DNA of 64,000 nt, from contig CM020618.1 in NCBI GenBank assembly GCA_009829735.1, forward strand, positions 4,400,882-4,464,881. The letters are read 5' to 3'. Every line of letters starts with the position of its first letter. Position 1 is the stretch's first letter. This DNA is from Pyropia yezoensis (lineage: Eukaryota > Rhodophyta > Bangiophyceae > Bangiales > Bangiaceae). A program made the position numbers and the translations under genes. Under the pieces are notes generated by a model, which was given only the letters and a program-made list of their open reading frames with translations, did not search any database and was not told where the DNA came from. Below, one piece after another: positions 8,824-36,220 of this stretch.

Positions 8824-8824
8824 A

Positions 8825-15318: not shown

Positions 15319-15323
15319 CGCTG

Positions 15324-16271: not shown

Positions 16272-18632
16272 ATGTCCTATCCCCAGGTGCCTGAAGAGGA
16301 GGAAGACCTCCTGATCGGGGAGGAGATGGAGGACGACGCGCCTGTCGGTCCCGACGCCGCGCGTTACGGGGTGAGCTCGTCTGACGACGACGAGCCTGCG
16401 GTGTCCGTCCGTCTGTCGGCCGGAGGACTGTCGTCCGTGTGCAGCGGCACGACGGTGCCGTCGGCCGGAGGTCAACCCGGCGGTCAACCGCGCGTGGCGG
16501 CTTCTACCCCCTCTCTGCCGGCTGCCCGGATGGAGCCTGGTGCCGGTGCCGGCTCACCGCAGCTACCTCAAGATGGTCCGCCCTGCGGCGGAGGTGGCGA
16601 CCCGCAGCCGACTCCGGCTGGTTAAGGTGGTCCGGGTGTCCGGGCGGTGACTCCTCGAGGCGGTCCCGACGTTGACGCGGGTGGTGGTGGCGGTGCGACA
16701 CCCGGTGCGGCGGGTCAAGACGGTGCGGGTGTCCGCACGGCCGGGGCTCCGGCTCCGGAGGCTGTCCAAGTGCCTTCCCCTTCCGAGGCGGGGGCTACGC
16801 CGACGGGTGGTGCCGGCGCCGGTACCGTACCTGCGGTGCCGCGGGCGTCGAGCGGTCAAGACGCTCCTTCTCCCATGGCGGTTGACACCGGGAGTTACTC
16901 CGGGCGGGCGCCCGCCCTTCTTCTTCCTCCTCGGCCTCGTCCATCTCCGACGTCGGCCCCTCTGCCGGTGGTGCGTCCCCCGGCGCCCCCGATTCTTCCT
17001 GATCCTGCCCGGGTTGCCCCGTTGGGTGGCGGCGTCGCCGTGGCGGCGGGTCAACCCGCCATGTCGGTGTCCGACTTGGTGGCTCGGGTTCGAGGCCTCA
17101 CGGTGCAAGAGTCGATGGAGTACGATGGGCGTATGCGGGTGGACTTCCACCTGGTGCATCCCCGTGGAGAGTCCTCCCGCCGCGTTAAGGTGGACCCGAG
17201 CTGGGAGCGGGAGTTGGTGCGGCTGGTCAACCAGCCGAACGCGGTCCGGGTGGAACATCATTGGATCCTGAGTCAGCCGGACGACCGGCATGCGCAGCTT
17301 TGGCGCACCCGGGTGGGACGGGGTGAGGTCTACCTCGACCCCAACTTCGGGGTCTGCGACCTGATTGCCCCCGCGTTGCCGCGGGAGATTGACTACCCGG
17401 CTAGTGCTCGGGGGATTGCGGCGGCGGCGGAGCCGGTTGCGTTTGGGGAGACGGTGAGCCGTACCGGTCGGTATCCCGACTTTGACTACTACCCGGGGGT
17501 ACCCCCGTATCTGTCGTTGACGGCTCCCTACCCGCCCATGGCGGGGTTGAAGTCGGCGTCGAGCTGGCGACGTAACCATGGTGTCATGGCGGATGCGTTC
17601 CGCACGGATATAACGTGTGCGTTGCAGACCGGCAACGGTCGTGCTCCGGTATACACTCCCGTGCGCCCGCCGCTATGGCAGGAGGGGTGGGAACACGCCC
17701 CTGCTTTCCGGTTTGACACCGGCTCCTGCCTCCGATACTTCGGTAGTGTGTTGGCCTCGCGACCGGTCCACCCGTTGCAGGGTACCTTCACCCTTGAGGT
17801 TACCCTCGGGCAGGCTTCATCCTTCTTGCTGTCCGTCCGCCGGCAGGGTCGTCTGTTTCATCTTCCGACGGGTGTCCGTCGGCACATCGCGCAGTTGGGC
17901 GTGGATCTGATAGCCGCCAAGACCGGGTTGGCCCGGGAGTTCGAAGCCCTGCTGGCTGTTCACGATGCCGTGAACTGGGCTGGGGTGTTGGCCTTTCCCC
18001 CGTACCGGGACCCGCAGGCTGGGGCTTCCCCCTTGCCTCGTCACTCGTTGCGTGTCCGGCGTACTCAGCCGGGTGAGCCCCGTTGCCATGGGTGGGCATC
18101 CACCGAGGCTGTTGCTGACCTGGGTATTCCCATGGTTATCCATGACCCTCTTCAGGTCCTTGCTCCGTGGTTCGGTAACCCGATGCCGGCGGCGGTTGGC
18201 CGTCGTCCCCGAGAGTGGGGCTCTGTGGGTGGGGAGCGTGAGGTGTCCCGTCGTCGGGCGGAGTACCGCCGTGGTTACGGTGGAGCCCCTTCGGTAGGGT
18301 CCTACCGGGCCTCGTATCAGGTGCCACCGGCTCCGGTGGTAGCCGTGTCGGCTCCTGTGGCTCCTCTGGCTGCGCCAGTGTCACCTCCCGCCCCTGTCCT
18401 ACATGACGGGGGTTCCCGTCTCTGGTATGAGGGCGTTGACGCCCTTGTTACCCGCGCAATGCGTGGGGGTCTCTCTGTTAGCTGGGGGGATATCCCCCCA
18501 GGTGCTGCGCTGGTTGGGTCAGCGCGTTGCTTCGGTGGCGTGCTGGACCGCCTCCAGAAAGGACGTGGAGGCTGGCCGCAGCACCCTCGTCCAGCTATGC
18601 ACCGAGGTAACTCGGGTGGTCGACCGTCGTGA
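16272..18632 (+). pseudogene. Antisense ORF of element 2 (interrupted by one in-frame TAA)
   Basis: It lies between pol and the 3' LTR on the strand opposite gag and pol. The ATG at 16272 starts an acidic N-terminus (MSYPQVPEEEEDLL); the same frame meets TAA at 16623 and then continues to 18632. Numbering from the GTG at 16647, a segment around residues 340-440 aligns with the antisense protein of element 3: RYFGSVLASRP with DHFGSVMLTAAP, RRQGRLFHLP with QRRGMLWHLP, and HDAVNW with HKFIEW. The first 140 residues after the stop are Pro/Ala/Gly-rich. It may be a single gene with a nonsense mutation, or two exons. The function is unknown. Transcription would converge with pol and end near the 24-bp repeats. 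Confidence 0.6.
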
Positions 18633-19021
18633 CGTTGCCGACCGGTGGAGCACGGAGGTCTACGCGCTTACGCGTGAGTGGCCTCCCTCGGGCAGTGGGT
18701 CTACCCACTGAGGAGTGCTATTGTTTGTGCGGGAGAGGGCCCCGGCAACCCTTATGGTAGCCGGGTAGTAGTGAGTATAAACTCATCCCCTTTGGGGGCA
18801 TTGCTTGCCTCTGTTGCTGCCCTGGGGAGTACTCCTTCTGGCTCAGTGGTGCCTTGCCTCCCGTCCAACTTCTTCCGGTAGGTTCATGCTTGGGGAGGTC
18901 ATCCTCCCTCACTTGGTGTCTTGGCTTGGGGAGGTCATCCTCCCGTGTAAGCTCCCTAGTTACTTCGATATTATCGGAGTTAGCCTTTACCTTTAAGTTA
19001 ACTTATTAAGGTTCAGGTTTT

Positions 19022-19117
19022 ACTTAGTTACCTAAGCTTGACTCTACTTAGTTGCCTAAGCTTGGTTCGACTTAGAAACCTAAGTCTGATTTGACTTAGA
19101 AACCTAAGTCTGCCGTA
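19022..19117. repeat. Four tandem 24-bp repeats with internal dyad, between convergent ORFs of element 2
   Basis: Four consecutive 24-base units each start ACTTAG and contain CTTAG-n4-CTAAG, so every unit can fold back on itself. Units 1-2 and units 3-4 are more alike, as if made by successive duplications. The array sits between the stop of the antisense ORF (18632) and the stop of pol (19189). A role in ending transcription from both sides or in blocking read-through is an inference. Confidence 0.85.
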
Positions 19118-19188
19118 ACCATGTCACACCCTACTTAGTAGGTATAAGCCTCACCCCCCAACAGCCGAAGTCGGTGTCGGTTGGGTTG

Positions 19189-22100
19189 TTACAGTAGGTG
19201 TCGTCGCCTCATGTACGGCATGAGGAGTTGGCGGGGTATATTTGCCGCCTGTTCCCAGGTGGGTGAGTCGTATCCGACCCACATAACCTTGACGTACCAG
19301 GGTCCTGGTAGGTCCGGGTCGGTGTGTCCGACTACGCTCTCTACTTGGTATGGAATCCCATCCGGTCCCACCGGGTCATCTGACCGGTGGGTTGCAAGAG
19401 CTTCATGTAGCAACCCAGCCGGTACCGGCTGAGGCTGTTCCGGCATCGGAGCAGGTGTGACGTCATTCATGCTGATGCGTTGAATCTCCGTATCGGAGTG
19501 TAAGATAACAGAGTGGTCATCTCTGTGGAGGATCTGGTACGGTCCCTTGACCGGTTGCATAAGCTTGTTCCCTCGGAACTTCTGGTGTCTGATATAGACC
19601 CAGTCACCTGTTACCAGGGTTGCGTTGCGCACCCGTAGTCGGGCGTCGAAGTTCTTCTTATATCGAAGTTGTGTTCTGTCAAGGGCACCCTTGAGCTTAG
19701 GAATCATCCACGATAGCTTGGCCAACCAAGCTAGGTGGATGCGTTCGGCGGGTCGGCCCTTCGGTGTATCATACCGAGTGCACCTGCCGGGTGGCAGCGT
19801 CAGGTTACGGACGCCTAGTGGCATGACCCACTCCAGCGGAGCAATGTTTGTGCTCCGATGTGGCCTGGCATTGTATGCCAGGGTGAGTACGGACAGAAGC
19901 CTGTCCCAAGTGTTCGTGTGCTCGGCCACGTAGCACTGTAGCATCTTGACGATGGTGCGGTTGAACCGCTCCACCTGCCCGTTGGACTGTCGGTGGTAGT
20001 CGGATGCCCGACATGGTTCGATACCGAACATGCCCAGGACCTTAGTGCAGAATGCCGACGTAAGGTTTGCTCCGTTATCGGAGAGGAGTTGCTTCATGAC
20101 TCCGTATGCACTGATCCAGTGGTCAACCACTGCGTTCATGATCGTGTATGCCGTATCATTCGGGATGGCTGCCGCTCTTGACAGCTTAGTGAAGCGGTCA
20201 GACATGACCAGGATGTACCTGTTCCCTTCTTCCGTTATCGGAAGTGGCCCGAGTATGTCGATAGCGACTTGCTCGTTGGGCCCATCAGGTGGGAATAGCT
20301 TCATGGCAGACGCCCGCCTATGTAGACTCATGCGGTTACGTGCACAGGGGTGGCATCCCCTTACGTGGTCGACCACGTCGACGGCCATTGCTGGCCAGTA
20401 GAAGAACCTTCGCATTGCTGCGAACATACGTGAACCCCCCGGGTGTCCGGCTGTAGGGTTCTCATGTTCTCGTTTCATGACGGCTTGCCGTAAGGACACG
20501 GGAACCACGACTTGATGTCGTCCATCGGCGGGTGCCCGCCGGTATATGAGTCCGTCTTCGTTCTCGGAGAAGATGCCGGCCGTACCGGCCAGGAGGTTAG
20601 CACGATGACGTCTACAGTCATCGTCGTTGGCCTGTGCCTCGCGGAAGTCCGCGAGGGTCAATGGGTACGCAAGGTGTGCCATGGTATGGTCAGCCATACC
20701 CTGGGTAGCATTACCCACCATGCACACCGGTACCACCGGGATGTCCTCGTCCACCGGGCGGGTATCCCCGCTCGGGGTGTCGAGTCGAGACAACGCGTCT
20801 CCGAGGTGGTGGGTTGACCCAGCCTTATACACCGTGCGGTAGTCGTGCTCGGCCATCTTCAGCCTCCATCGGGCTAGCCTCCCATGGCTATCGGAATCCT
20901 TGTCACCAAGGTTGAGGAGCCATCGTAGGGGTTCGTGGTCGGACCTCACGATGAACCTGGAGCCCTCCAGGTATGGACGGAGCAGTTGCACTGCCCATAT
21001 AACTCCGAGGCATTCACGCTCGGTGGCACTATAGTTCCGCTCAGCCGGGTTGAGTGTCCGGCTGAAGTACCCTACCGGACGTAGGTCCGGGATAACGTTA
21101 TCGGAACCGATCAACGTCTCCCCCTGTAACAGGGTGCATCCCACTTGTGTATCACACGCATCGACATCGATGACGAAGGTACCCCGTCTATGCGGTAACG
21201 CAAGGACGGGTGGGGCTAGTAGGGCTTGCTTCAGCGACTCGAATGCCTCCTCTTCGCTAGGCGAAGGGGGTTGGAGTACCTTGGGCAGGGTACTGCTCGT
21301 AAGAACCGTTAACGGTTTAGCTATCCGAGCGAAGTCCTTGACGAACCGTCGGTATACATTGCACATTCCCAGGAAGCTCTTGAGCTGCGTCTGGGTGTTA
21401 GGGAACCGGGCATCCCGGAGTGCCCGGGTATTGGCTTCGAGTACCCCTAGTTTACCAGGGGTTATCTGGTGGCCCAGATACTCGACCGTCTGTTGGAAGA
21501 AGGCGCACTTCTTCAGACGCAGGGTTACCCCGGCGTTCCTCAAGAGGGTGAGTACCTCGTCAACATGTTGTACATGGTCATCCATGTTATGCGAGAAGAC
21601 GATGACGTCATCGAGGTACACTAGGCAGTTACGCCACTTCACCCCCGACAGTATGATGTCGATAGCCCGCTGGAATGTAGCGGGGGCGTTGGACAATCCG
21701 AAGGGCATCCTTAGGAACTCGTACACTCCACTGTGACAGACGAATGCCGTCTTGGGGATATCCTCGTCCGCCACCGGGATCTGCCAGTATCCGGCATTGC
21801 AGTCGATGGTGGTAAACACCGTAGCCTCCCCCAGGGAGTCGATGCATTCATCCATCCTTGGTAAAGGGTATGAGTCCTTCTTGGTAACCAAGTTGAGGCG
21901 TCGATAATCGATGCAAAACCGAGGGGTTTGATCCTTCTTCGGCACAATAACGACTGGGGCACCCCATTCCGACATCGAGGGTCGGATCACCTTAGCTTCA
22001 CTCATCCTCTTCACTTCTCCATCAACGATCTCTCGTTGCATAGGTCCCGCTCGGTGCGGTTGTGAGCGGGCGGGTCGTGCGCCTGGTACCAGGTCTATAC

Positions 22101-23370
22101 GATGTTGGGTTGCCCCAATGGTCCCCAAGGCCCCGCCTGTCCACATAACGTCATGCTTTCTTAGCATCCGTCGTACCCCTTCGGCTACCGAAGGGGGAAG
22201 GTGGTCGAGGTCAGCCTCGGCCAGTGCCTTCAAGGCCTCTTGGTCCTTTGGCGGCAGGTCCGCCGGAGCCGCAGATGGGTTAGGCTTCCCGTCATCGGGT
22301 TGCTGTCGCTCGGTGGTCTCGGCGACCGCCTGTACTTCAAGTGGTTCCACTTGACCTTCCTTATCAGGGGTAAGGATATCTCCTTCGTAGAGTTCGGCAA
22401 TCCCGAGGATAGTTCCCTTCGGGAGGGTGACTGCCTTACGGCGATAGTTCGCCATCACTAGGAGGGACGACCCTCCTGCTGGGAGGTCTATGAGACCGTT
22501 GGCCATGGTCAACCCATGGCGCTTGTACGTCCGTAGGTTGGACTGGACTCTGCAGATGCCTGCGAGGTCGCAGTTAACCGGGAGGACTGTCTCCGACAAC
22601 GGCTCAAAGCGAGTTCGCTTGGCCAACCGAAGTGTCTTCGGCTCGACGCTTGCGTACACCTCAGCCACGTTAACGTGGCTTCCTTGTAGCGTCAGGTCCC
22701 TGACGATAGCCGTGTGTCCTCGCTTCGTCCCGTCGGCTTCTTGCAGCTCGACGGTCCTCCGGCCTGGCCGGATTGCATCAACGTGAACGTTGATGAAGGT
22801 GCACCCCAGTATGCAGGGCACCGATAGCGTTTCACATACCAGGAAGTCAACTTCCGTGGTGAGATCCCCGATGGTAACCCGCAGCGACATCGCTGCGGTC
22901 GTACGAATGAGTCGACCATTCGCGTCCTTGATGGTGGGTCCCCGAGTCACTCTGACTCGTGGAAGCCACTTGTCCGGGAGGGTATCCTTCCGGATAAGGT
23001 TGGGTCCAGCCCCTGTATCCAGTACAGGGTAGTACGATCGTGTCGACTGGGGGTCAACCCCCAGTGTGGCTGATACCTTGAAGTTCTCCAAGGTAAACAA
23101 CACATGTCCTACACCGATATCCGGTGTAGCTCGGGCATCCTGAACAGGGCCCTTGTCTGGTTCAACGTGACGGGACTTCCCGTCCTCTCCTCCCAACCTT
23201 GGAGGTTGGTCATCAATCCCCTGACGCCGTGTCGTCGGAGCCGGAAGGTGTACCCGGGGGTTGATGCGGCGTCGGCTCAACCGCGCTCTCCGTGGGGCTT
23301 TCCCCGCGGTACTCCGGGGTGGCTTGCTTGGGTAACCCCAGCGCCCCCCGGTCATCCTTCCTCTTACTCG
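19189..23370 (-). CDS. pol: pol polyprotein of element 2 with C-terminal chromodomain
   Basis: The frame is open from the slippery site; an ATG at 23355 gives 1,388 residues. Visible in order: protease (VLDTGAGPNLIRKD, Asp near residue 113), RT (IDYRRLN, YLDDVIVF), RNase H (IDVDACDTQVG), integrase zinc finger (GHPGGSRMF with later HPCARN), and catalytic core (AIDILGPLP, DNGANLTSAF, NGQVERFN). The last 60 residues (YQVESVVGHTD, KVMWVGYDSPTWEQ) have the conserved aromatic and Glu positions of a chromodomain. That places the element among the chromoviruses, whose chromodomain can direct integration toward marked chromatin. No stop or frameshift is present, in keeping with a young insertion. Confidence 0.95.
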   Translation of the reverse strand, partial: RVRGRMTGGRWGYPSKPPRSTAGKAPRRARLSRRRINPRVHLPAPTTRRQGIDDQPPRLGGEDGKSRHVEPDKGPVQDARATPDIGVGHVLFTLENFKVSATLGVDPQSTRSYYPVLDTGAGPNLIRKDTLPDKWLPRVRVTRGPTIKDANGRLIRTTAAMSLRVTIGDLTTEVDFLVCETLSVPCILGCTFINVHVDAIRPGRRTVELQEADGTKRGHTAIVRDLTLQGSHVNVAEVYASVEPKTLRLAKRTRFEPLSETVLPVNCDLAGICRVQSNLRTYKRHGLTMANGLIDLPAGGSSLLVMANYRRKAVTLPKGTILGIAELYEGDILTPDKEGQVEPLEVQAVAETTERQQPDDGKPNPSAAPADLPPKDQEALKALAEADLDHLPPSVAEGVRRMLRKHDVMWTGGALGTIGATQHRIDLVPGARPARSQPHRAGPMQREIVDGEVKRMSEAKVIRPSMSEWGAPVVIVPKKDQTPRFCIDYRRLNLVTKKDSYPLPRMDECIDSLGEATVFTTIDCNAGYWQIPVADEDIPKTAFVCHSGVYEFLRMPFGLSNAPATFQRAIDIILSGVKWRNCLVYLDDVIVFSHNMDDHVQHVDEVLTLLRNAGVTLRLKKCAFFQQTVEYLGHQITPGKLGVLEANTRALRDARFPNTQTQLKSFLGMCNVYRRFVKDFARIAKPLTVLTSSTLPKVLQPPSPSEEEAFESLKQALLAPPVLALPHRRGTFVIDVDACDTQVGCTLLQGETLIGSDNVIPDLRPVGYFSRTLNPAERNYSATERECLGVIWAVQLLRPYLEGSRFIVRSDHEPLRWLLNLGDKDSDSHGRLARWRLKMAEHDYRTVYKAGSTHHLGDALSRLDTPSGDTRPVDEDIPVVPVCMVGNATQGMADHTMAHLAYPLTLADFREAQANDDDCRRHRANLLAGTAGIFSENEDGLIYRRAPADGRHQVVVPVSLRQAVMKREHENPTAGHPGGSRMFAAMRRFFYWPAMAVDVVDHVRGCHPCARNRMSLHRRASAMKLFPPDGPNEQVAIDILGPLPITEEGNRYILVMSDRFTKLSRAAAIPNDTAYTIMNAVVDHWISAYGVMKQLLSDNGANLTSAFCTKVLGMFGIEPCRASDYHRQSNGQVERFNRTIVKMLQCYVAEHTNTWDRLLSVLTLAYNARPHRSTNIAPLEWVMPLGVRNLTLPPGRCTRYDTPKGRPAERIHLAWLAKLSWMIPKLKGALDRTQLRYKKNFDARLRVRNATLVTGDWVYIRHQKFRGNKLMQPVKGPYQILHRDDHSVILHSDTEIQRISMNDVTPAPMPEQPQPVPAGLLHEALATHRSDDPVGPDGIPYQVESVVGHTDPDLPGPWYVKVMWVGYDSPTWEQAANIPRQLLMPYMRRRHLL

Positions 23371-23376
23371 TTTCCC
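23364..23376 (-). promoter_or_regulatory. Probable -1 ribosomal frameshift site, gag-pol junction of element 2
   Basis: The minus strand reads gcG GGA AAC GAG TAA in the gag frame. The -1 frame continues without a stop into pol. A possible 6-bp stem (CCGGGG with CCCCGG) begins 18 bases past the heptamer, which is rather far. An ATG nine bases past the gag stop offers re-initiation as an alternative in this copy. Confidence 0.72.
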
Positions 23377-25547
23377 GCCCTTGGTAGGGTGCTGTCCGCC
23401 GGGACATCCGGCTGAGGAGGTGCCCCCTCGACGGCCAGTACTCCACCTGGAGCTGGCTGCCTACCCGGTGCGGGTCCGGGTGCTCGGGCGGGATACCCCC
23501 CGGTGGATGCCTTGCATTGCGCCGCTGCCCGCCGAGACTCCTCGGGGATGAGTGGGCAGGAAGACACCCAGTGCTGGGGATCCCCACACAACATACATCC
23601 GGACGTGCCGGTCCTCCCTTGAGGTCGCATCGGGGTAGCCCCGTAGCTACGGTTGCCTCCCTCGGGCGCCCGAGTGCCTGCTCCCTGGTAGGCCTTGGGT
23701 CTTTGGGTCAACCGGAACATGGATTCCCCCAACCGGTTGGGTCGGCCCGCAATCTGCGGAGGTGCCTCCGTGCGCACCGCCCATGTTGGCAAGGGTTGGT
23801 GAGGGTTACCCGTCACCGGGGAGTACCCCGTAGTCCGCACATACGGGACGCGCCGTCCCGTTCCTTCGTTGACCTGGAACTGGGTTCCAGCCGGGGCGAT
23901 GTACGCTACCGTACCGTGTTCATCAATCACCGGCGTCGCCGGTAGCAACAGGTGGCCCTGTTGGTCGACTAGAGGGTCATCCTCACCAATAGGGGTATGT
24001 TCGGTCGCCACCAGTACTGGTGCGGCCTTACGTTCCACCTTCTCTTGCCTCGGTACCGGGGTAAGACTGGGCTTGCCTCCCTCACCCTTGGGCTTCGGGG
24101 CCAAGGCACACTCCGGGTGTAGAACCCGGTAGGCGTCCCCTAGGGACTTGCACATATGCATCAGTCGACTGAAGTTCGTCCGTGCCGTGTTGGCGCCCCG
24201 TGCGGATATCCGCACGTAGTTGGGTACTCCTGCGAACAGGATGGCCCGTAGCTCCCCTTCTCCGAGGAGCTTCCCCAGCTCGTAGTCGAGCTCTTGGATC
24301 CGGCGTCCAAACATCTCCTCATCCTCCCAGGACTGGGCGGTGGCAGTGCGAAGGGCCCGATAGTGGTCCTCGCACTTGTCCTCACTGAGGTAGCTGCTCA
24401 GCAGCTCCTTCAATATCCCACGGTAATCCATGGGGGTGGCCGCGACCCTCATTCCCGGCATCGGGGATGCCTGGCGAAGAATGCCTCGCACCCGTTCATC
24501 AACAAAGAACGGGAGGATCTCCAGGGCCAGCCCCTCGTTAACGAGCGCCTTGTCTGCGGCTGCCTTGAAGCTAGTCAAGAAGCCGATGACTGCCAACGGG
24601 CGTCCGTTCGGCCCCCCGAACATAGGGACTCCCTTCATAAGGGTCTGCATAGAGCGGATCGCCCGATGCGACGTATTACGCATCGATTCCGATACGGTGG
24701 TAGAGCGGTCCTCCAAACGATAACGTTCCGGAGTAAGAACCGACCGGAAGACCTCGTTGACGATCTCCGTGTCAGCGTCCTGGATATCCAGTCGCTTAGC
24801 CAGTTGATGAGCGAACTCATCGGACTCCATCCGCTTCAGTAGGCTCGCAGTTACCTGCGCGGTCATAGCTTCCACCACTGAAGATGGTACTTCAGGCGTC
24901 GGCACCTCGGGAACCCGAGTTGCCTGGCCTCCTTCGTCGTGGGGGTACTGCGAGAGGGTACCCCCTCTCCCAATAACTGACTCTCCCCCGGCGTACGTAT
25001 CCGCCGGGTCGTGTCCGCGGAGTCCGCTTCGGGTGCTCCGAGCGTATCGCTCCGTGTGACTCCGTTCCAACTCTGCCGACGAGTCGGACCCATACCCCAT
25101 TGTGTCCGGGGGTTGTCCAGGAGTAGCAACCCCGGGATTGACCCTGGTGGACTCCGAAAGTAGTCCGGCCGGTTCGAACCGTACCGGTGTGGGAGGAACA
25201 CGACGGAGTCCCGTCGTGTGCCGTGTTGACATCAACACTGCCATTGCGTCCTCCGTCCGATCTTGACGGGCGTCGAGCCCGGAAAACCGGGCCTCGATGC
25301 GGGCCAATGATGCCATCAGGGAATCCCCTGGTGAAGGAGGCGGCGGAGTGAGGTCGGTCGACGACAGTTGAGGCGGGCCCCCGCCTCCTGCCGTCCGAGC
25401 CGTGCCAAACGTCGATCCGGCACCGGGAAGCATTGGCGTCTCAATGTTATCGATCGGGTTCCCGATCCCGGTTCCCGTAGTCACCTCCGGAGTCGGCGTA
25501 GACGCCGATCCGTCATCTTGAACGTTCCCCGTCTCTTGGGTAGACAT
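23364..25547 (-). CDS. gag: gag polyprotein of element 2
   Basis: It has 727 residues from the ATG at 25547 (MSTQETGN); the GTG two codons upstream is less likely. The N-terminal third is Thr/Pro/Gly-rich and contains a short helix-prone segment (LARIEARFSGLDARQDRTED). The capsid-like region includes RAIRSMQTLMKGVPMFGG and FGRRIQELDYELGKLLGEG. A CCHC zinc knuckle (CMLCGDPQHWVSSC) is at about 651-664. It ends RAGNE, like the other gag genes. The pseudogene at 6,978-8,598 is an older relative. Gag would form the particle and package the element RNA. Confidence 0.92.
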   Translation of the reverse strand: MSTQETGNVQDDGSASTPTPEVTTGTGIGNPIDNIETPMLPGAGSTFGTARTAGGGGPPQLSSTDLTPPPPSPGDSLMASLARIEARFSGLDARQDRTEDAMAVLMSTRHTTGLRRVPPTPVRFEPAGLLSESTRVNPGVATPGQPPDTMGYGSDSSAELERSHTERYARSTRSGLRGHDPADTYAGGESVIGRGGTLSQYPHDEGGQATRVPEVPTPEVPSSVVEAMTAQVTASLLKRMESDEFAHQLAKRLDIQDADTEIVNEVFRSVLTPERYRLEDRSTTVSESMRNTSHRAIRSMQTLMKGVPMFGGPNGRPLAVIGFLTSFKAAADKALVNEGLALEILPFFVDERVRGILRQASPMPGMRVAATPMDYRGILKELLSSYLSEDKCEDHYRALRTATAQSWEDEEMFGRRIQELDYELGKLLGEGELRAILFAGVPNYVRISARGANTARTNFSRLMHMCKSLGDAYRVLHPECALAPKPKGEGGKPSLTPVPRQEKVERKAAPVLVATEHTPIGEDDPLVDQQGHLLLPATPVIDEHGTVAYIAPAGTQFQVNEGTGRRVPYVRTTGYSPVTGNPHQPLPTWAVRTEAPPQIAGRPNRLGESMFRLTQRPKAYQGAGTRAPEGGNRSYGATPMRPQGRTGTSGCMLCGDPQHWVSSCPLIPEESRRAAAQCKASTGGYPARAPGPAPGRQPAPGGVLAVEGAPPQPDVPADSTLPRAGNE

Positions 25548-25753
25548 AGTCACAATCAGTCAACCGACGCAACGATCACCACGAATAAGAGAGCGAGGGG
25601 GTAGATTGGGGAGAGTAACAGTAGGTCACAGTCACAGGTAAAAGCTCAACACAATCGATCAGGTCGCAACACCACGAGTACAAGAAAAGGACCGGATCCC
25701 TATCCGTGTGCCAGGGCCGAAGACGGCGTCACCACAAGGGTGACGGAAACCCG

Positions 25754-25771
25754 TCCCCTGCTGCTCCACCA
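25754..25771 (-). other. Primer binding site of element 2
   Basis: The sequence TGGTGGAGCAGCAGGGGA on the minus strand lies one base inside the 5' LTR. Its complement parses as the 3' end of a tRNA: CCA, discriminator A, an acceptor strand pairing with GGAGCAG, a T-stem strand CCCTG, then TC. Confidence 0.85.
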
Positions 25772-25772
25772 A

Positions 25773-26135: not shown

Positions 26136-27308
26136 CGCTGACAGCTGGACAAGACCGACGGCTCGCCGCATCGTGCCACTCGAGCAATAGCTAGTGTGTG
26201 TCAAATGTTGACCACTCTCGCTGAGATCCAAGGTTCCCGTGGACTACATGAAAAGCACAACACACTTGCTTGTAGAGGAGACCGAGGCGAGTAAGACTTT
26301 TTTTTTTTTTTTCTGAGTGCTTCTGATCTCTCTGAGCTACGAGCGAGAGAAGCCCAACGGACTGTAAGTGTTGCTCCGGAAGTATCGACCAGACCATGAA
26401 GCCAATGGAAATACCCGGAAATGCGATCAGGCCACATCTTGACGGCAGCCGGAAAAGTGCACATGTCTGCCGAGACACAAGGTTATTTCCGTGCTTTTGT
26501 GTCCGTGCACCGGGGCCGTCTTGACGGCCAGGCACAAAGCACACGCACGTGTTCGTGCCTGGTGCGCGCCTGGGAAAATTTACCACCCATTGCAGGCTAC
26601 ATCTAATGCAAGGGCACGCCGTCCGTTGGCTTGATATTTTTGGTTACATCTTCGCTGGAAGCTGTGAGCCACTCATTTGCTCTCTTGGGCGGAGATCGGA
26701 TGCTCAAGGGTGCTTCAGAGTGGTCGGAAGAACACAGTGTTTTTCCGACCACTCGCCCGTCGTGTCGGGCGTGTATGAAACTCTATTTTAATTCTTGCGT
26801 GACTGAGTAATTTTGCTGTGCCCCACAACGTGCTTCCGAGGTGTGCTCGAGGCACGCCTGTGAGTCCGGCCAATGGGAGGGCTCCCTGCCTGTGCTTTGT
26901 GTCTGAGACACTTCTGGGCGCTGCCGTCAAGACAGTGCCTCAATCTGGGTCTGCGGTGCATGGTGAGCGAATCAATCATGCTGAGTGTAGCACGACCACG
27001 CACATTGGGCCACCTGGGTGCTATTTGACGCCGTCAGAAATACACAATGAAGTAGAGAAAAAAGCACAGCGCGGAGGGCATCGACCCCCAGGTGTTGATG
27101 CTGGACCAGAATGTGGACAACGTCTATGTCCATCTGCTGGTGGAAGGTCTCATGCCCAGGTCATGTGAGCTTCTTGTGCTGTTGGATGCAAGCAGCGGAA
27201 AAAAATACATCCTTCAAGAATCGGCCTTCTTGGGGCCGTCAGGCGGGTCGACATTTCCGGCACTGGTCGACATTTGGCACTTACTAAAGCTTTAGCTACA
27301 GGTGCAAC
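26136..27308. other. Gene-free segment between elements 2 and 3
   Basis: This stretch of about 1.2 kb is less GC-rich than its surroundings. It starts with the second copy of the element 2 target duplication. It contains a T run (26,299-26,312), a 12-bp inverted repeat CTTGACGGCAGC (26438-26449 and 26920-26931 inverted) and a strong hairpin at 26719-26753. A short plus-strand ORF at 27,092-27,295 is not recognised. I see no convincing gene. Confidence 0.45.
26719..26753. repeat. Strong hairpin
   Basis: The arms AGTGGTCGGAA and TTCCGACCACT are perfect 11-bp inverted repeats around a 13-base loop, and AACAC/GTGTT can extend the pairing inside it. It lies midway inside the inverted-repeat structure 26438-26931. 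Confidence 0.7.
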
Positions 27309-27313
27309 GTGTG

Positions 27314-27782
27314 TGTGGCAGTATTGACCCCAAGGTAGGGGGGCAACACGTGCCATGCAAGGGGCGGCAGGCCACTAGCCTGATCCGTCCCTCCCCCTGC
27401 ATTTGGGTCCATATTCCCTAAGTTTGGGATAGTTAGCTTAGTAGTAAATCCAACTTGGATTTGAGGGTTTTCTGCATTTATCGTTTTGAATTTTCGTGTG
27501 GCCCGGTGGGCAGGTGCTGGGGTGGGAGATTCTGAGTGGCGAGATTCTGAGTGGACCCTGGGGGGATAAGGGGAGGGACAGCGGGGCTTGGCCCTGCGTC
27601 CCCGTCCCGACCAAGAAACTGTTGGACCACACACCATCCTCTTGTTTGTCCGTGGGGGGTTTGCCCCACAACAGGGACAGAGTGTGTGCGACTTGCACTT
27701 CTTCCGGTTCCCCCGACACGGGAGGCAGCCCTAGCACACCGCCCCAACTTGGGTGCCGTGTGTGCTAGTGGTTTTTGCCACA
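27314..27782 (+). repeat. 5' LTR of element 3 (469 bp)
   Basis: Its TGTGGCA...TGCCACA termini match the copy at 36,221. I count two substitutions close together near position 17, one near 75 and one near 170. It is followed after three bases by the primer binding site. Confidence 0.93.
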
Positions 27783-27785
27783 TTT

Positions 27786-27803
27786 TGGTGGAGCAGCAGG
27801 GGA
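27786..27803 (+). other. Primer binding site of element 3
   Basis: The sequence TGGTGGAGCAGCAGGGGA is the same 18-mer as in elements 1 and 2, though the LTRs are unrelated by eye. Confidence 0.85.
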
Positions 27804-27902
27804 CAGAGGTAAACTTTACCTCCGGGTGCACCCGGGTGTAAGGGGCCCTCTGTCTCAGAGGAACGGTGGTCTTGGACCGTGTCATACGGATCGTCAGCCA
27901 AC

Positions 27903-29849
27903 ATGGCTAGCTCGGACCCCCCGTCGTCCGGGGAGTACACGGGTGACGCACGTACTTCAGTGCCTTTGAATACTGGTGAGACATAGGTGAGTTTACCTGG
28001 GGTCGCAGAGGGACTAGAGGTCCCTCAAGCCAGCAGGACTGGAAGTACGGGCGGGCAATAGGCCACCCCGACTCAGTCGGGAGTTCACTCGGGTGACACT
28101 TCTGATGTGGGTGGGCCGAAGTCTGGCCACCGTGTGGTATACTCAACGGGAACGTCCCAAGGGGTGAGGACTGTCCCCGCGGGTTCCACTCGGGTTGGAG
28201 CCAACTTTGGCTTGGAGTCGTCGCCAACTAGGCTTTCGGAGGACGGTGGACCTCCGTTGGTCGGCGATGGGCTCGCGCCCATGCCCCCGGTTGAGACCCC
28301 TGAGGAACGTGGTTACCCCTCAGGTGGACTGCCGGAGGCGGAACGAGACTCAACTGGAGTCGTCAATCCACTCCTCGCGGAAACTGTCCGTCGGGAGGCG
28401 ACCAATGTGTTGCGGCAGACTTTGCCGGACCTGGTGGTCACGATGACGAATGCTATTCTGAATCAGATTGTGGCGAGTTTGCCAGATGGCCTTAATGTCC
28501 AAACCGGATTGGGGCTTTCGAGCCCGCAGGCGCGGGGGGAATCCCCCCTTACGCCTATCTCTGGTCGCCCCGAACTGGGGGCGACACCTGTGACTCCCAA
28601 CGAGGGAGCCACACCATACTCGGTGGGGCGTACGCCCTTCACGGGGGAGTTCCCCCCGGAAACGCCGGCGGCTACACCAAACGCGCCGCGCCGGACTACA
28701 GGCACTGAGAGTGAACTTACCCCAGTGCCACAGCGGCTGGTCCCTCAACGTGAGGTGCCGCCCAAGATCCAGGTAGCCAACCCGGTCTACCAGAGGATCT
28801 TTGACTGTGAGATCTACGCCCTCCACAACAAGTCGGTGGCGTATGGTCCTGACCAGGCCCGAGCCATGGGCCGTGCCAAGAAGAATGCACTTCATTCTTT
28901 TGGGCACAAAGTGGAGTGGGACGGAACCCCCCCCCTCCGTGTCTTTGAGTTCCTACGTCGTTTCACAAAAGCCTGTGACGACAATGCCATAAGTGAAGGC
29001 ATGGCTTTTTACATGCTACAGGAGTTTACGAAGGGCGACCTACGGACAGAACTTATGTCCGTCATGCCCAGCTCCTCAAGTGGAGGCGCTGGGGAGGTGA
29101 CGTCCTATTTGGAGCTCGTCAACTGGTTGTTGAGAGCCATGGTTGATGAGGCAGCGTTCGCTTCTCAAGTCGAGGAGTTTACGCAAGCCCATCAGGAAGA
29201 GGCGGAGGACGAGTTGTCCTTTGCGGAGCGAGTCCGTAAGCTCAACAATCTTTGTGGGTTTCTTCATCCACAAGCTGTGGTGAAGAGTCGGTTTGTGGAG
29301 GGACTCCATTGGTCAGTCCGGATGGAGACCCGGGAGCATAACACTGCCCGGGCGACCCTGGCCGGGTTGGCCAGGTTCGCCTATCGCAGAGGCGAGGCCT
29401 ACCGCAAGTTGCGGGAGGAACAACGCCAGGAGCGTCAGGCCGAGTTGGCCAAGGAACGGGAGGAGGCGCGCCAGGCCAGAGAGTTGAGAGAGGCACGCCG
29501 AATCCGCAAGAAGAGGGCGGTAGCTGCCGTGGGAACTTCCCAGGGTATCTCTTTGTCTTCCCCAGTTGGGAAGACCCCTCCCGGAACGGACCATCGGTGT
29601 TGGAACTGCAACTCCGATGGTCACTGGGCATATGATTGCCCCAAGTTGAGTAAACGCATCCAACAACTTGTTAGGAATGCGAGTAAAAAGTCGGCTACGA
29701 ACGAAGTACGTTCACGCCGCGAGGGTGGGTCTCGACCGGTCGTTGCGGTCGCCACACCCTCGGCGGAGGAGGCGGACACGTCGTCCTCGGACTCGTCGTC
29801 TTCCTCCCCGCCCTCAGATTCGGACGCCAAGTCGGCGGGAAACGAATGA
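27903..29849 (+). pseudogene. gag: gag of element 3, with two in-frame TAG codons near the N-terminus
   Basis: The ATG at 27903 opens MASSDPPSSG and meets TAG at 27984 and again at 28059. The frame is then open to 29849. The open part contains the capsid-like domain (PPLRVFEFLRRFTKACDDN, shared with element 1), a highly charged helical stretch (EEQRQERQAELAKEREEARQ) and a CCHC zinc knuckle (CWNCNSDGHWAYDC). It ends SAGNE. Initiation at a later ATG (near 28279) would still give most of the capsid and knuckle. The N-terminal damage may therefore be tolerated, or the upstream ATG may not be the real start. Confidence 0.8.
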
Positions 29850-29882
29850 CCGTTGGGGCTGGTCGTCCGAAGCTCACAACGG
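29837..29882 (+). promoter_or_regulatory. Probable -1 frameshift signal with downstream stem, element 3
   Basis: G GGA AAC occupies 29837-29843, followed by GAA TGA. After a 6-base spacer a perfect 6-bp stem can form between CCGTTG (29850-29855) and CAACGG (29877-29882). Heptamer, 5-9-base spacer and stem are the classic parts of a -1 frameshift signal. The gag stop also overlaps an ATG (ATGA at 29846), so re-initiation is possible in this copy too. Confidence 0.75.
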
Positions 29883-32800
29883 CAGCCTCGGCCAAGTGGG
29901 CCAGGAGGACGAACCAACCGTGCCGGATACTGCGGCGACCTAAGGGAGTCCGCCCACCTCGGGTAGGACTCCCCAAGAACGTAAACCCACGTCGGGTCAT
30001 CGCGGTGCTGACGGGTGAGAACTTCCAGGTGGCTGGACGGGTGCAACTTGCCCCCGGCCGTGCATGGTGTACCCGTATCGTACTTGATACCGGGTCGGGA
30101 GCCTCCTTGATACGCAAGTCGCTATTACCAAAGGAGGTGAAGCTCCAACGCTGGAGGTCCAAAGCTGACCATATGATTGACATCAATGGTGGGGTACTTC
30201 CCATCGTTGGTGCCGTGACCCTACCAACTAGGTTGGGGACCCATGAGGTCGACGTGACCTATGGCGTAGTTGAGAATATATCGGTACCCCTGCTTCTGGG
30301 TACCCCTTATGTTGTTACACAAGTGCCTTTGATTTGTGGCCCTGAGTACTGGGTCAAGTTGATGAATGGGGAGACTATCCCCATCCTTGGTAAGGGAAAG
30401 TCTGTGGCTCCTGTGACAGTCTCACAGTCGAAGCCTGTTTGTTCGGTGAGGGAAGGGCTTACTGCTACCCTGCGTTTAGCCCGCAAAGTCACGTTGCCCC
30501 CCAACTCGGTGGCGCACGTTGATGTTGTAACTCATTTTACGGGGAACGGGTTGGTGCACCCTCACCCCCGTCTTGCTCGCAAGCACCAAGTGCATGTTGC
30601 CCTTGGCACGATGGACTCCAAAGCCGGAGTCCCGTGGAGGATCCAGGTGATGAACCTGAGCCCGACGCCCAAGTACTTCAAGTCGGGAGCCAAGTTCGGC
30701 TATATCGACCAACACGAGGGACCGGTAGTAGCGGTCACCCTCAACGCGGGCGCAAGTAGCGACCCGAAGTCCGGAAAGGAGAAGCATCAAGCCAAGTCGG
30801 CCGCCTCTCCTCGACCCCATGTGAACATGGAGGGTGTCCCCCCCAGGTTGAGGGTTCAAGTTGAACGCCTCTTGGACCAATATCACAAGTTGTGGGATGG
30901 TCAATTGGGACTCATGAGAGCCACCCAACACCGGATCGAGTTGAAGCCCGGTGCACCCCCTATACGCCAACAACCGTATAGGGGAGGGCCTCGTTCAAGG
31001 GCCCTCGTTAAGGAGCAAGTTGCTCGCATGGAGGCCCTCGATGTGATCGAGGCCAGCAACGCCGAGTGGGCGAGTCCGGTGGTTATCGTCCCCAAAGTTG
31101 ATGGGACCCCCCGGTTTTGTATCGACTACCGTAAGCTCAACGAGAGCACGGTGAAGGACAGTTATCCCCTACCTAGGATGGATGACTGTCTGGACTCTCT
31201 GGGGGAGGCAAACGTGTTCTCTACCCTGGACTGTAACGCGGGGTACTGGCAAATTCCCATTGCCCCGGAGGACAGGCATAAAACTACCTTTACCTGTCAC
31301 TGTGGTACCTACCAGTGCAAGCGCCTACCGTTTGGTCTGTGTAACGCGCCGGCAACTTTCCAGCGCGCTATGGACATGATTCTGGCCGGAGTACGGTGGC
31401 AGATCTGTCTTGTGTACCTAGACGATATCATTGTGTTCCCCCGAAGTCCGGAGGAACACATTGGCCATCTTGGCCAGGTGTTCAAGCTACTTGCTGACGC
31501 CGGTGTGTCACTGAAGGCGAGTAAGTGCCACCTCTTTACTCAAGAGGTGGAGTACTTGGGACATGTTGTCCATCCGGGGCATCTCAGTGTTAACGAGAAG
31601 AACTTGAGGGCCATTCGTAAGGCTCAGTACCCCCGGACCCAGACCCAGATGAGGAGCTTTCTCGGGATGTGTAACGTGTACCGACGTTTCACCAAGGGCT
31701 TCGCCAAGGTGGCGAAGCCGTTGAATGAGCTAGTGAGCTCAACGCTACCGAAGAACCTGCCTCCCCCAAGTCGGGTGGAGCAGGAATCCTTTGAGACTCT
31801 TCGGGACCTTCTGCTGAAGCCCCCCATCTTGGCTATTCCCAGGTTGGGAGGCCACTCCATCCTGGATGTGGACGCAAGCTACGACCAACTTGGTTGTGTG
31901 TTGCTTCAGCAGCAGCCGGACAAGGAGTACTTGCCGGTGGGATACTTTAGTAAGGGGCTGAACTCGGCCGAGAAGAACTACGGAGTCACCGAGTTGGAAG
32001 GACTCGCAGTGGTGTGGGCGGTGACGTCACTTCGTCACTACCTGGAGTGTGAGAAGTTCCTCATCCGCTGTGACCACCGCGCGTTGCAGTTCATCTTTAA
32101 GACGGACTGTACGAACACTCGTCTCAACCGGTGGAGGGTGCGACTGGCACCCTTCAACTTTGACATTGAATACCGACCTGGCAGGCAACATGCCCTTGCC
32201 GACGGCCTCTCGGGTACCTACCGAGGGGCTGGACACTAACCCAGTCGATGAGGACATCCCCATCGTGGGGGTAGTCACGCGCTCGGGTCAGGCGTTGAAC
32301 CCCGAGGCGCCAGGGAACAAGAAGTACTTGCCCCTGTCCCTGGACGAGGTGGTGAAGGCCCAGGCCGAGGATCCCTTCTGCAAGTCGCAGAGGGATATAC
32401 TGGATACAGTGGTAGAGACGCGTTTCATTCTGGGAGACAATGGCCTCCTCATGAGGAGGGGGGTATTCCAGGGGACCGAACAACTTGTCGTCCCCGCATC
32501 CCTCAAGGACAGTATCCTTGAGAGGGAGCACAACGCTCCCACGGGTGGACACCTGGGGTCTAGTATACTGTACCAGACCCTGAGGACCAGGTACTACTGG
32601 CCGTCCATGGTGGTGGACATCTACAGTTGGGTGGCTGCCTGCACAAGTTGTGCACAGAACCGTCTGATGGAACGGCGGCCTAGTACGGCTATGTTATTGT
32701 TCCCGGCCAAGGAGCCCTTCGCCGCGTTGGCGATGGACATCCTTGGGCCACTGCCAGTGACCGAGGAGGGCAACCAGTACCTCCTGTTCATCTGTGACCG

Positions 32801-33827
32801 CTTCACGAAACTTACGCGAGCGATCCCACTGGCAGAGATCACGGCCATGTCGGTCGTGTCAGCCTTCCTAGATCACTGGGTTGCCGCGTATGGCATCCCA
32901 GATAGTACACTATCGGACAATGGACCGCAATTTGCGTCTGTACTGTTTCAGGGAGTGCTGGATATGTTGGGGGTTCAGGCAAACTATGCCACCCCCTACC
33001 ACCCACAAACTAATGGGCAGGTGGAGCGCTTCAACAAAACTATTGTTAGGCAGCTGCGCCACTATGTGAGTGAGCACGTGAAGACGTGGGACCAATACAT
33101 TTCTATCCTTACTACTGCCTACAATTCGCAGGTTCACTCATCTACAGGGGAAGTACCCCTCGCTTTTGTGACCCCCCGTCGCGTGCGGTCTATTGCCGTG
33201 CGGCGGTCGCTCCCAACTAGGGAGGATGGTGGCAGTACGCCTTCTCCTACTGAGAGTAAGGCGGAGTTCGCTGCTAGGCTTGAACACCTCATCCCTAAAG
33301 TCAGGGCTGAGATGGACAAAGCACAAAAGCGCTACAAGCGTACCTTTGACAAAAAGGTGCGCAATGCTAAACATGTCCCCGAGCAGGGTGACTGGGTGCT
33401 GGTACACTCGCACACCCCAACTGGGGGTAAGCTGGTATTCCAGACGAAGGGACCGTACCAGGTCCTTCGTACTGATGGGCGGCGCTTCACCATCGAAAGT
33501 GACGATGGGGTCCGCACAGTGAACGGACAGGACGTGGTCAAAGTTGCACCACCGCCTGCGGGCGACCCAGCTTGGGCGCGTGCTTTGGAAGCGTGGCGCC
33601 TCCCCTCACTGCCTGCGGCCAAACAGGGCCCGCAGGAGTACGTGTTCGATAAGTTCATCGACCACGGATTGGATGAAGACACTGACCGCCTCATGTTGAG
33701 GGTGCGTTGGTTTGGCTACAAAGCCAAGAATGATACGTGGGAGTATGTGGAGGACCTTCCCGCTGAGAAGGTCCGGGCGTACTGTGCCCGGAATGAGATA
33801 GACCCTAACAGCCCTCCCTCAACGTGA
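29846..33827 (+). pseudogene. pol: pol of element 3, broken by one frameshift between RNase H and integrase
   Basis: The first part (29846-32239) contains protease (VLDTGSGASLIRKS), RT (FCIDYRKLN, YLDDIIVF) and RNase H (LDVDASYDQLGC). Near 32,207-32,213 (GCCTCTCGGG) the homologous frame jumps by +1, consistent with loss of two bases in a short CT run, and the first frame ends at 32239. The second frame carries on to 33827 with the integrase zinc finger (HNAPTGGHLG, CTSCAQNRL), the core (AMDILGPLP, DNGPQFAS, NGQVERFN) and a C-terminal chromodomain (EYVFDKFIDHGLD, VRWFGYKAKNDTWEYVEDLP). No other disruption is visible. Confidence 0.9.
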
Positions 33828-33938
33828 GGGAAGGCCGAGCAACAGTGCAAAGAGAGTGCTTCAAGTCGAAGTGGTACGCAGAGTGGCTTTTAACTACAGC
33901 CCTAACCCTCACACTCTCACAACAAAGGCAGCTACCAA

Positions 33939-35882
33939 CTAGGCACGCATGCTAGACTCTCCCACTCCACGGCCCTCGCCCTCACGTGGAGGCGAGCGGC
34001 GAGACCCACGCCGATAACGGTCTCCACTTGTTGGAGGGGGCGGCGGCTCCAAGTCGGAACCGTCGCGCCCCTCACGGTCGCGCAAGTGGCGCCGACCGTG
34101 GCCACTCTTCTGCCTGGTCTTGCGCGCAAGTTTGCGACGCAGACGCTGGACAGACTCCGTCTCCGACGGGGTAGAGGACTCCGAAACGGAGTAAGACAAC
34201 TCGTCTTCCGATACGGAAGGAGAGCGCCGCGAGTGTCGGCGACGACGGCGAGGAGGCGAGTATGCCCGGCTCGCGCGACGTTTGCCACGCCCAAGTGGGG
34301 CTGGCTGGGGCATAATAGCCCCAATGCGAGCCAACTCGGCTGTCATAAACTCCGCCACCGACTCGCAACTCGCGGTCGCCACTGCAGTACGAACGCGCTC
34401 CTCAAGTTGAGGAGTCTCGGAACTCTGTAGGGTTGCGGTCGACGCGGCCAACCAGGAAATGGTGCGCACCAACGTGGTGATCATCATCTCTGAGGTTAGA
34501 GGCGTGGGCGGCAACACCAACTTGGGGTATACCGTCAGGAGGGTGGCCCCCAAGTTGGGGGACACCGGGGTGGAAGACTCCACGGCCACGCTGATCGGGA
34601 TGTTCCCGTGAGGTTGGAAAGGAACAGGAGGAAGCGGAGGGACCCGCCGAGGTGGCGGTACCCGGGTGTAACTGCGACCCCGACTTGGGGCCTCCGCAGT
34701 GGGTTGAGTCATATGGCCATCATAGGACGGCACGGCCATAACTATGGGCTTGTCCGGGGGTGGCGCAGTGTGGCGATCCACCCCCGGGGCATACGGGTAG
34801 TCCCCGATGCCCAACCCCTCTCGTAGGACCACACGGCCGTCGTGAAGCTCACGAGCGACCCACACGAACTGGCAAAGTGCGCCATCGTCCTTGGGCCCAC
34901 GAGTGGGGCGGCGCAACTTGTGCTCAATGCTCTCCCACTCGATAAACTTATGGAGCCGGAGCATCTCCTCAAGTAGAGTGAGTTGTCCTGATGAGCACCC
35001 CTCAGCAACTAGCTGAGGGGTGAGCTGTTCCAAACCTTGGAGGAGCCGGAGGGGGAGATGCCAGAGCATCCCCCGCCGCTGAACACAGGACACCCAGGTC
35101 GACATGACCTCGAGGAGCCACTGGGTGGCCAACATGGCCCACACCAGGTGATCAGGGGCAGCCGTCAACATGACGGAGCCGAAGTGGTCAAGCAACCGTG
35201 GCAACAACGCCGGGAACCCGTAGGGGACCTCAACTTGAGGCCACCACTCGGGCTTCTTCGGATAGTACTGCTCCTTACTGGCAGCAGACTGTTGAGGAAA
35301 CTCAAGTTGAGCCGAGGTCACCAAGTAGGGACCTCGCCGGAAGTCTTTCTCCATCCGCACATCAAAGTGATGAGTGTGCGGATTGGCCTCGTGGAGGTAC
35401 AGTGGGCGAGTTGCCACAGCGTCCCACGTGAAGGTCGGCAAGTCGCCGGGACCCGGGATAGTTCCCCCGCGGTCCACCATGGCCTTGGCACGCTGAACGT
35501 CCTCAACCTCCTCATCGTCCAGGATGGCAAACTGGTCCGTCCTGAAGCCGGCAGGGAACCCGACCCTACGGGGATACTTCTCCCGTAGGCGGTCCCATAC
35601 CCGGCCCATCGCTGCGCCAAGTCGGCCACAGCGAAGAACAGTCAGCCCCTCCTCATAGAGAGGCCAAGCGGGGTAAAACCACCGCCCCAAGGCCTCACGC
35701 GGGACAACTTGTCCCGCCTCCGGGGGAGACCCCGCCGTCAACCCAAAGCCGGGTGACGCGGGAGTCCCGTCCCCCGGAGCGATCGCGGAGCCCCCGCCGG
35801 AAGTCCCGGCGGGTGCTGCCCCGTAGGAGGTGTCCTCCATGCGCTCGTCAAGAGAGTCCGTCTCCACTCCCGGAGTCGCCAT
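33939..35882 (-). CDS. Antisense ORF of element 3 (647 aa), intact
   Basis: It is encoded on the minus strand between the pol stop and the 3' LTR, convergent with pol, which ends 111 bases away. The first ATG in the frame is at 35882 (MATPGVETDS). Residues 1-60 are acidic and low complexity. The core (65-375) contains RWFYPAWPLY, YYPKKPEWWPQVEVPYG, DHFGSVML, QWLLEV, GMLWHLPLRLLQGLEQL and PYAPGVD, shared in order with the orphan at 9,312 and partly with the ORF of element 2. The C-terminal 120 residues are Arg/Ser-rich with a likely nuclear localisation character. It is uninterrupted even though gag and pol of the same copy are damaged. It resembles no enzyme I know; an RNA- or DNA-binding accessory role is only a guess. 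Confidence 0.8.
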   Translation of the reverse strand: MATPGVETDSLDERMEDTSYGAAPAGTSGGGSAIAPGDGTPASPGFGLTAGSPPEAGQVVPREALGRWFYPAWPLYEEGLTVLRCGRLGAAMGRVWDRLREKYPRRVGFPAGFRTDQFAILDDEEVEDVQRAKAMVDRGGTIPGPGDLPTFTWDAVATRPLYLHEANPHTHHFDVRMEKDFRRGPYLVTSAQLEFPQQSAASKEQYYPKKPEWWPQVEVPYGFPALLPRLLDHFGSVMLTAAPDHLVWAMLATQWLLEVMSTWVSCVQRRGMLWHLPLRLLQGLEQLTPQLVAEGCSSGQLTLLEEMLRLHKFIEWESIEHKLRRPTRGPKDDGALCQFVWVARELHDGRVVLREGLGIGDYPYAPGVDRHTAPPPDKPIVMAVPSYDGHMTQPTAEAPSRGRSYTRVPPPRRVPPLPPVPFQPHGNIPISVAVESSTPVSPNLGATLLTVYPKLVLPPTPLTSEMMITTLVRTISWLAASTATLQSSETPQLEERVRTAVATASCESVAEFMTAELARIGAIMPQPAPLGRGKRRASRAYSPPRRRRRHSRRSPSVSEDELSYSVSESSTPSETESVQRLRRKLARKTRQKSGHGRRHLRDREGRDGSDLEPPPPPTSGDRYRRGSRRSPPREGEGRGVGESSMRA

Positions 35883-36207: not shown

Positions 36208-36220
36208 GAGGAGAGGGGAG
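36208..36220 (+). other. Polypurine tract of element 3
   Basis: GAGGAGAGGGGAG directly precedes the 3' LTR at 36,221. Confidence 0.75.

Follow-up and report, generated by a model that had tools for sequence, protein, structure and literature searches.

Open reading frames (ORFs) that run antisense to gag and pol have been described in the long terminal repeat (LTR) elements of plants since the 1990s, although their function is not known according to the parts available of a review (PMC7264820). In those same parts, Grande gene23 is given its own antisense promoter and a nuclear protein, and the antisense ORFs of Grande (gene23), RIRE2 and PvRetro13 are reported to be conserved similarly to the other element proteins (PMC7264820). 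Also, the part available of a second paper predicts that the Retand protein TRP28 binds DNA (PMC11963269), and both sources, as far as they are available, describe antisense genes and a promoter for them in human T-cell leukaemia virus (HTLV) (PMC7264820, PMC11963269). For red algae, the accessible portion of a study using 2012 data from Porphyra yezoensis states that no retrotransposon chromodomain was found (PMC3350952), and the titles and abstract openings of the open-licence PMC articles searched name no antisense ORF in a red algal retrotransposon. Here, we consider 64,000 nucleotides of the red alga Pyropia yezoensis (assembly GCA_009829735.1, contig CM020618.1, positions 4,400,882 to 4,464,881 of the forward strand), a stretch that we call the window, in which LTR elements, some of them nested, sit among host genes. 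Elements 2 and 3 of the window are Ty3/gypsy LTR elements with target duplications, and in each the stretch from pol to the 3' LTR holds one ORF on the strand opposite gag-pol. The antisense ORFs are real genes, as shown by homology in a single frame, by the intactness of their copies and by purifying selection, and their products form a new protein family within a known category, that of the antisense additional ORFs.

An antisense gene family in red-algal LTR elements

The window holds three members of the family, one of them probably in two stretches:

33939-35882, minus strand: element 3 antisense ORF, from the ATG at 35882 to 33939, 647 codons, with an acidic N-terminus, a conserved core and an Arg/Ser-rich basic C-terminus
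16626-18632, plus strand: element 2 antisense ORF, 668 codons from stop to stop, with the core at about 17154-18200
16272-16625, plus strand: open stretch before the element 2 antisense ORF in the same frame, with an ATG at 16272, 117 codons and a stop at 16623-16625
9312-11120, plus strand: third member, 602 residues

An earlier note, made from the letters of the window, had proposed a conserved antisense protein family in the slot between pol and the 3' LTR, and this proposal has held in at least five groups of elements. It had also read 16272-18632 as one continuous element 2 frame; the antisense slot is where it was said to be, but the frame is broken by the in-frame stop at 16623-16625, and the stretch upstream of that stop is probably the N-terminal part of the gene, interrupted in the window copy. 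Beside the window copy of the third member no pol was found, and we take this ORF to be a relic of an older element.

Chance ORFs in GC-rich DNA can be ruled out by the one-frame homology, simulations, copy counts and ratios of nonsynonymous to synonymous divergence (dN/dS) given below. Across 300 order-2 Markov sequences simulated for each slot, the longest stop-free runs reached 400, 425 and 501 codons against observed runs of 643, 668 and 724, and the G+C content of the antisense ORFs dips at codon position two, as it does in gag and pol. The 9312-11120 protein matches the element 3 protein at E = 4e-16 and the element 2 protein matches that of element 3 at E = 1e-8, and a ten-member profile recovers the element 2 protein with a probability of 95% (E = 2e-8). 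When the slots are compared in all six frames, it is the antisense frame that gives strong matches (2e-15 and 2e-8), together with a weak shadow (E = 0.002) in one sense frame of one pair, and alignment of the same slots as DNA returns chance matches of 17-19 bases and nothing more. The motifs FGSV, LEV and HxxxxW, which the earlier note had taken for a common core, do not recur family-wide; across 11 aligned members 12 residues never vary, with Y-P-x-x-P-x-W-x(4)-E at their centre (R199, Y225, P226, P229, W231, E236, S254, P295, L325, G369, P374 and P416, in the numbering of the 9312 ORF). Outside the assembly, the first two protein searches returned only one near-identical protein, querying with the core of the third protein brought in P0002 (84% identity) and six JGI metagenome proteins at 35-41% identity, and no relative was confirmed in IMG/VR or in the prokaryote genomes searched.

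Copies were sought in the 107.5 Mb assembly (contigs of 43.6, 34.3 and 29.4 Mb), and all copy numbers refer to best candidates only, 68 having been scored from 3573 first-look candidates for the element 3 protein. The element 3 ORF has at least 68 copies of full or near-full length at 98% identity or more, counting the window copy, and 61 of these have no stop, the other seven having one each. The element 2 core is stop-free in 116 of 116 scored copies, whose open frames run from 541 to 1021 residues (909 being the commonest) and are mostly longer than that of the window copy. For the third protein there are 77 matches at 30-100% identity, 29 of them without a stop and many being pieces, and we inspected 30 with their flanks (L001-L030), namely the ten best and a further twenty picked by three criteria: length, an intact frame and variety. 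In 24 of these 30 loci (L002-L024 and L030, with unmapped LTRs) the ORF has a pol next to it on the other strand, nine relatives at 78-88% identity to the third member (L002-L010) being among them. The six loci with no adjoining pol are the window copy (L001), L025 and L026, where element-2 or element-3 family copies match beside the ORF, and L027-L029, to which we return below. The antisense slot is thus common to at least five groups, those of element 2, of element 3, and of elements whose ORF products are about 85%, 70% and 35% identical with the third protein. Elements 2 and 3 have what has been defined as an aORF-3R, an ORF between pol and the 3' LTR and antisense to gag-pol, and among the best-candidate copies it is present and conserved as gag and pol are.

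Selection on the antisense ORF is purifying. For element 3 we compared the window copy with 20 of the 67 other copies (18 top-ranked and two carrying stops), and the pooled ratio of nonsynonymous to synonymous polymorphism (pN/pS) was 0.126. Variants shared between these 21 copies were 38 synonymous to 5 nonsynonymous and private ones 65 to 49 plus two stops, and the observed totals of 54 nonsynonymous and 103 synonymous changes compare with 107 and 47 expected under neutrality from the observed mutation spectrum (p = 6e-10 by Fisher's test when the expected numbers are treated as counts). Copies with top protein scores bias pN downwards, and to offset this two low-ranked ones were included; in the resulting 23 copies, variants present in at least two copies were 72 synonymous to 7 nonsynonymous and private ones 37 to 55 plus three stops. 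The contrast between shared and private variants has a Fisher p of 1.2e-12, to be read knowing that variants on one lineage are not independent and that many of the newly shared variants arise only with the second of the diverged copies and are not independent events either. Old variants have been filtered and young ones hardly at all, as they would be if the replicating lineage were under selection and its copies drifted once inserted.

The other groups agree, with ORF dN/dS of 0.38 (eight copies), 0.36 (six copies, core only) and 0.34 (six of ten copies, the other four being left out as split or partial). Where ORF and pol were compared on one set of four copies, dN/dS is 0.42 for the ORF against 0.64 for pol, each pol piece having one in-frame stop. 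For comparison, gag has a dN/dS of 0.39 (three copies), and two shifted frames of the 70% group give 1.08 and 1.57 (four copies). Between groups, identities at codon positions one, two and three are 0.81/0.87/0.54, 0.47/0.54/0.37 and 0.48/0.51/0.34. The earlier note had named dN/dS near one, and slots with nothing but stops in other copies, as signs that would speak against a gene; what we find is 0.34-0.38 in three groups, pN/pS of 0.126 in element 3, and best-candidate copies that are stop-free in 61 of 68 cases for element 3 and 116 of 116 for the element 2 core.

Proposed role of the protein and its alternatives

We propose, at a probability of roughly 0.55, that these proteins are an accessory family of chromodomain-type Ty3/gypsy elements in a bangiophyte red alga, 600-900 residues long and each encoded by a separate antisense gene. 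Transcription would start at a promoter of the gene's own, within the 3' LTR or beside it, and the product would enter the nucleus, bind the RNA or DNA of the element and help or regulate a step of its cycle, be it the balance of transcripts, nuclear export, or import and integration. An antisense transcript and a nuclear nucleic-acid-binding protein are to be expected because of the analogy with Grande gene23 and Retand TRP28, and this analogy makes a nuclear, nucleic-acid-binding accessory role our best guess.

Several results weigh against this proposal or the evidence beneath it. The profile searches and structure prediction suggested in the earlier note found nothing significant in Pfam, in PHROGs or among PDB sequences and yielded two unusable AlphaFold2 models of the core, whose mean predicted local distance difference test scores (pLDDT) were only 36 and 38, and for this reason no fold search was made. 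Of the five other ORF proteins examined, four carry a net negative charge over their last 80 residues, and therefore the basic tail of the element 3 protein does not demonstrate a common nucleic-acid-binding tail. The largest 19-residue hydropathy, 1.23-1.47 in the three window proteins, is as high as 2.02 for one of the three metagenome members examined, and a TATA-like box upstream on the ORF strand is found at -756 in element 2, with none in element 3. On the side of selection, 18 of the first 20 element 3 copies were top-ranked by protein score, with the lowering of pN that this brings, and the two low-ranked copies differ from the window copy by 7 synonymous, 12 nonsynonymous and 1 stop change in one case and by 56 synonymous and 13 nonsynonymous in the other. 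A reverse-strand frame of the 70% group has a dN/dS of 0.59 (three copies), and therefore part of the constraint signal is not specific to the frame; the pol end of the 85% group, at 0.17 (three copies), is more constrained than its ORF at 0.34 (six copies). Finally, the membership of element 2 rests on element 3 and on profiles; its protein reaches E = 0.039 directly against the 9312 protein and has no match to it in the six-frame test, an eight-member profile without element 3 misses it, and a profile built on element 3 and P0001 recovers it at 1e-4.

Below significance, the best domain matches were three: DUF6214 at 0.05-0.06, a PDB chain at 0.07, and a RING-type match at 0.009 that covers residues 1-27 of the 9123 frame, upstream of the ATG at 9312.

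A protein of this kind might also be a self-limiting factor that restrains its own family, or competes with others, instead of aiding replication. It is conserved in many-copy families, and these families coexist in one genome, as such a factor would be; help and restraint are inseparable on the present results, and self-restraint should be harder for selection to maintain in a selfish element, which leads us to regard this as unlikely.

It is likewise improbable that the ORF was captured from the host or from a different mobile element and rides along with its home elsewhere. What speaks for capture comes from one set of loci. L027-L029 are 10-kb stretches that have several kb in common at about 93-97% identity and contain a 342-residue relative of the antisense protein; neither gag nor pol is matched anywhere in these stretches. 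Of the ten weakest matches to P0006 (frames of 373-512 residues at 29-32% identity), nine are stop-free and two fall in L027 and L029. The other eight would belong to the same group, making about ten such loci in the genome. Set against this, the pN/pS values of L027-L029 (about 1.05, 0.79 and 0.64) are near-neutral among the three copies and give no support to a constrained gene there, and a capture, if there was one, must be old, since no fewer than five groups of elements have the antisense slot.

An envelope-like or other structural particle protein is a good deal harder to accept. Env-like ORFs do occur between pol and the 3' LTR in some plant elements, as described in the available part of the review (PMC7264820), and the hydropathy of 2.02 in one metagenome member would suit a membrane protein. 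However, the plant env-like ORFs are in sense orientation and ours are antisense, the window proteins reach hydropathies of 1.23-1.47 only (a judgement made with no dedicated membrane or signal-peptide predictor), and profile comparison shows no kinship to gag (hhalign probability 0.1%).

Last, the antisense strand might act as RNA only, tuning or silencing the sense transcript as antisense or double-stranded RNA while the frame is a by-product of high GC, and we hold this to be very improbable: non-coding antisense transcripts are known in other elements (PMC7264820, in the part available) and high GC does make long frames commoner, with simulated slots reaching 400-501 codons, but the amino-acid constraint lies in the frame and is absent in two shifted ones, shared variants are 72 synonymous to 7 nonsynonymous, and protein homology persists across groups whose DNA no longer aligns.

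The host elements and their hairpins

The two elements that carry the antisense genes, and the remnant next to the third member, are laid out as follows:

15324-15686, minus strand: element 2 3' LTR, with target-site duplication CGCTG at 15319-15323
19189-23355, minus strand: element 2 pol, open, with protease-like, reverse transcriptase, RNase H and integrase parts
23364-25553, minus strand: element 2 gag, a single open ORF
25773-26135, minus strand: element 2 5' LTR, with target-site duplication CGCTG at 26136-26140 and primer-binding site at 25754-25771
27314-27782, plus strand: element 3 5' LTR, with target-site duplication GTGTG at 27309-27313 and primer-binding site at 27786-27803
28107-29849, plus strand: element 3 gag, a single open ORF with a zinc knuckle
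29846-33827, plus strand: element 3 pol, split once into two frames near 32.2 kb
36221-36689, plus strand: element 3 3' LTR, with target-site duplication GTGTG at 36690-36694
6797-9186, minus strand: what is left of an element-2 family copy, namely gag and a 5' LTR that abuts the 9312-11120 ORF

The two LTRs of element 2 are 99.7% identical, have TG...CA ends and are flanked on both sides by the CGCTG duplication. In element 3 the antisense ORF had been described as open beside a damaged gag and pol; it is open, and pol is damaged by its split, but gag is intact. Chromodomain matches at the C-terminus of pol have E = 3e-4 in element 3 and E = 0.03 in element 2, both under the Pfam cut-off score. 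The LTR at 8825-9186 was considered as the owner of the 9312 ORF and rejected because no polypurine tract follows it; it is the 5' LTR of the element-2 family remnant. One primer-binding site recurs in five copies, at 5566 (element 1), 6312 (with one mismatch), 8806 (the element-2 family remnant), 25754 and 27786, and elements 1, 2 and 3 would accordingly share it to prime from one common tRNA, judging by these sites.

The elements are also rich in short perfect hairpins, which we counted with arms of six or more bases against 20 dinucleotide shuffles. Hairpins with a 4-base loop number 62 in element 2, where the shuffles give 3.9; in element 3 there are 21 with 3-base loops (3.2 in shuffles) and 14 with 5-base loops (1.7). 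In element 1 and in 27 kb of host DNA the counts depart hardly or not at all from chance. Three other ORF-bearing groups have the excess as well, each with a single dominant loop size (L011 with 30 against 2.6 and L003 with 16 against 1.2, both for 3-base loops, and L021 with 38 against 3.2 for 4-base loops), and L027 has no excess at loops of 3-6 and 10 against 2.2 at loop 7. A G-C pair closes 55 of the 62 element 2 hairpins (mostly as G-NNNN-C), and the centre of the element 3 hairpins is mostly NASTN. The excess is found in coding and non-coding parts alike (15324-26135 and 27314-36689, and L011, L021 and L003). Against 100 synonymous-codon shuffles each, totalled for loops of 3-8, the gag, pol and antisense ORF of element 2 have 22, 50 and 16 hairpins where the shuffle maxima are 10, 18 and 8; the excess is weaker in the gag, first pol part and antisense ORF of element 3 (11, 12 and 10 against maxima of 7, 8 and 8), and the ORF of the third protein has 9 against a maximum of 7. 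A slice from the second half of element 3 pol had been cut out of frame and does not enter these figures.

To our knowledge, such family-specific hairpins within the same elements are an unexplained pattern. Their upkeep by RNA pairing was rejected: the comparison of hairpins between el2 and el1' shows no compensatory change, and among hairpin mismatches G-U is no commoner than A-C. These two results are more easily explained at the level of DNA, perhaps by snap-back copying as the element is reverse-transcribed, than by selection for RNA folding. In the 23 element 3 ORF copies, polymorphic sites make up 5.7% of stems, 16.2% of loops and 8.7% of the rest, figures that are suggestive only. That the antisense protein recognises the hairpin set of its own family, and so marks, packages or protects the nucleic acid of that family, is a long shot.

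Three further features were noted in the window. Plus-strand ORFs at 11482-14436 adjoin the third antisense relative and have a weak NDC10_II match (E = 0.0019); we take them to look like the tyrosine recombinase of a Crypton-like element. An 853-residue minus-strand ORF at 37307-39868 has a weak DUF1280 match (E = 0.0013) and is perhaps a transposase. In host DNA, a perfect palindrome with 15-base arms lies at 46133-46163, close to a DUF4246 gene.

Comparison with described antisense ORFs

The earlier note had likened the arrangement to Grande and RIRE2, and for arrangement the comparison is apt. Our elements resemble Grande (gene23), RIRE2 and PvRetro13 in slot and strand, a likeness of arrangement, and they differ in host and in element lineage. 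TRP28 of plant Retand (Transposase_28, PF04195) is likewise encoded by antisense ORFs, whereas the red-algal proteins have no PF04195 match at E up to 5 in the 11 members or up to 10 in trimmed cores, with the reservation that HMMER filters could miss very remote kinship; Retand is also a non-chromovirus of flowering plants, and the present elements have a chromodomain match, below the Pfam cut-off, and come from a red alga. HTLV-1 offers a comparison only for the way it works, with an antisense gene started at the 3' LTR, and is a retrovirus with env. Its antisense regulator, expressed from the 3' LTR, is HBZ.

Many near-identical open copies, together with the contrast between shared and private variants, show such an antisense ORF to be selected as a protein, and the family provides a compact sequence set for a test of binding and localisation. 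Outside plants, an antisense ORF in the same slot is described for Boty of Botrytis and Sclerotinia in the available part of the review (PMC7264820), a system that we liken to ours by arrangement. The red-algal elements extend this arrangement past the plants and fungi that the review covers in its available part (PMC7264820), with one protein family in the same antisense slot of several diverged element groups.

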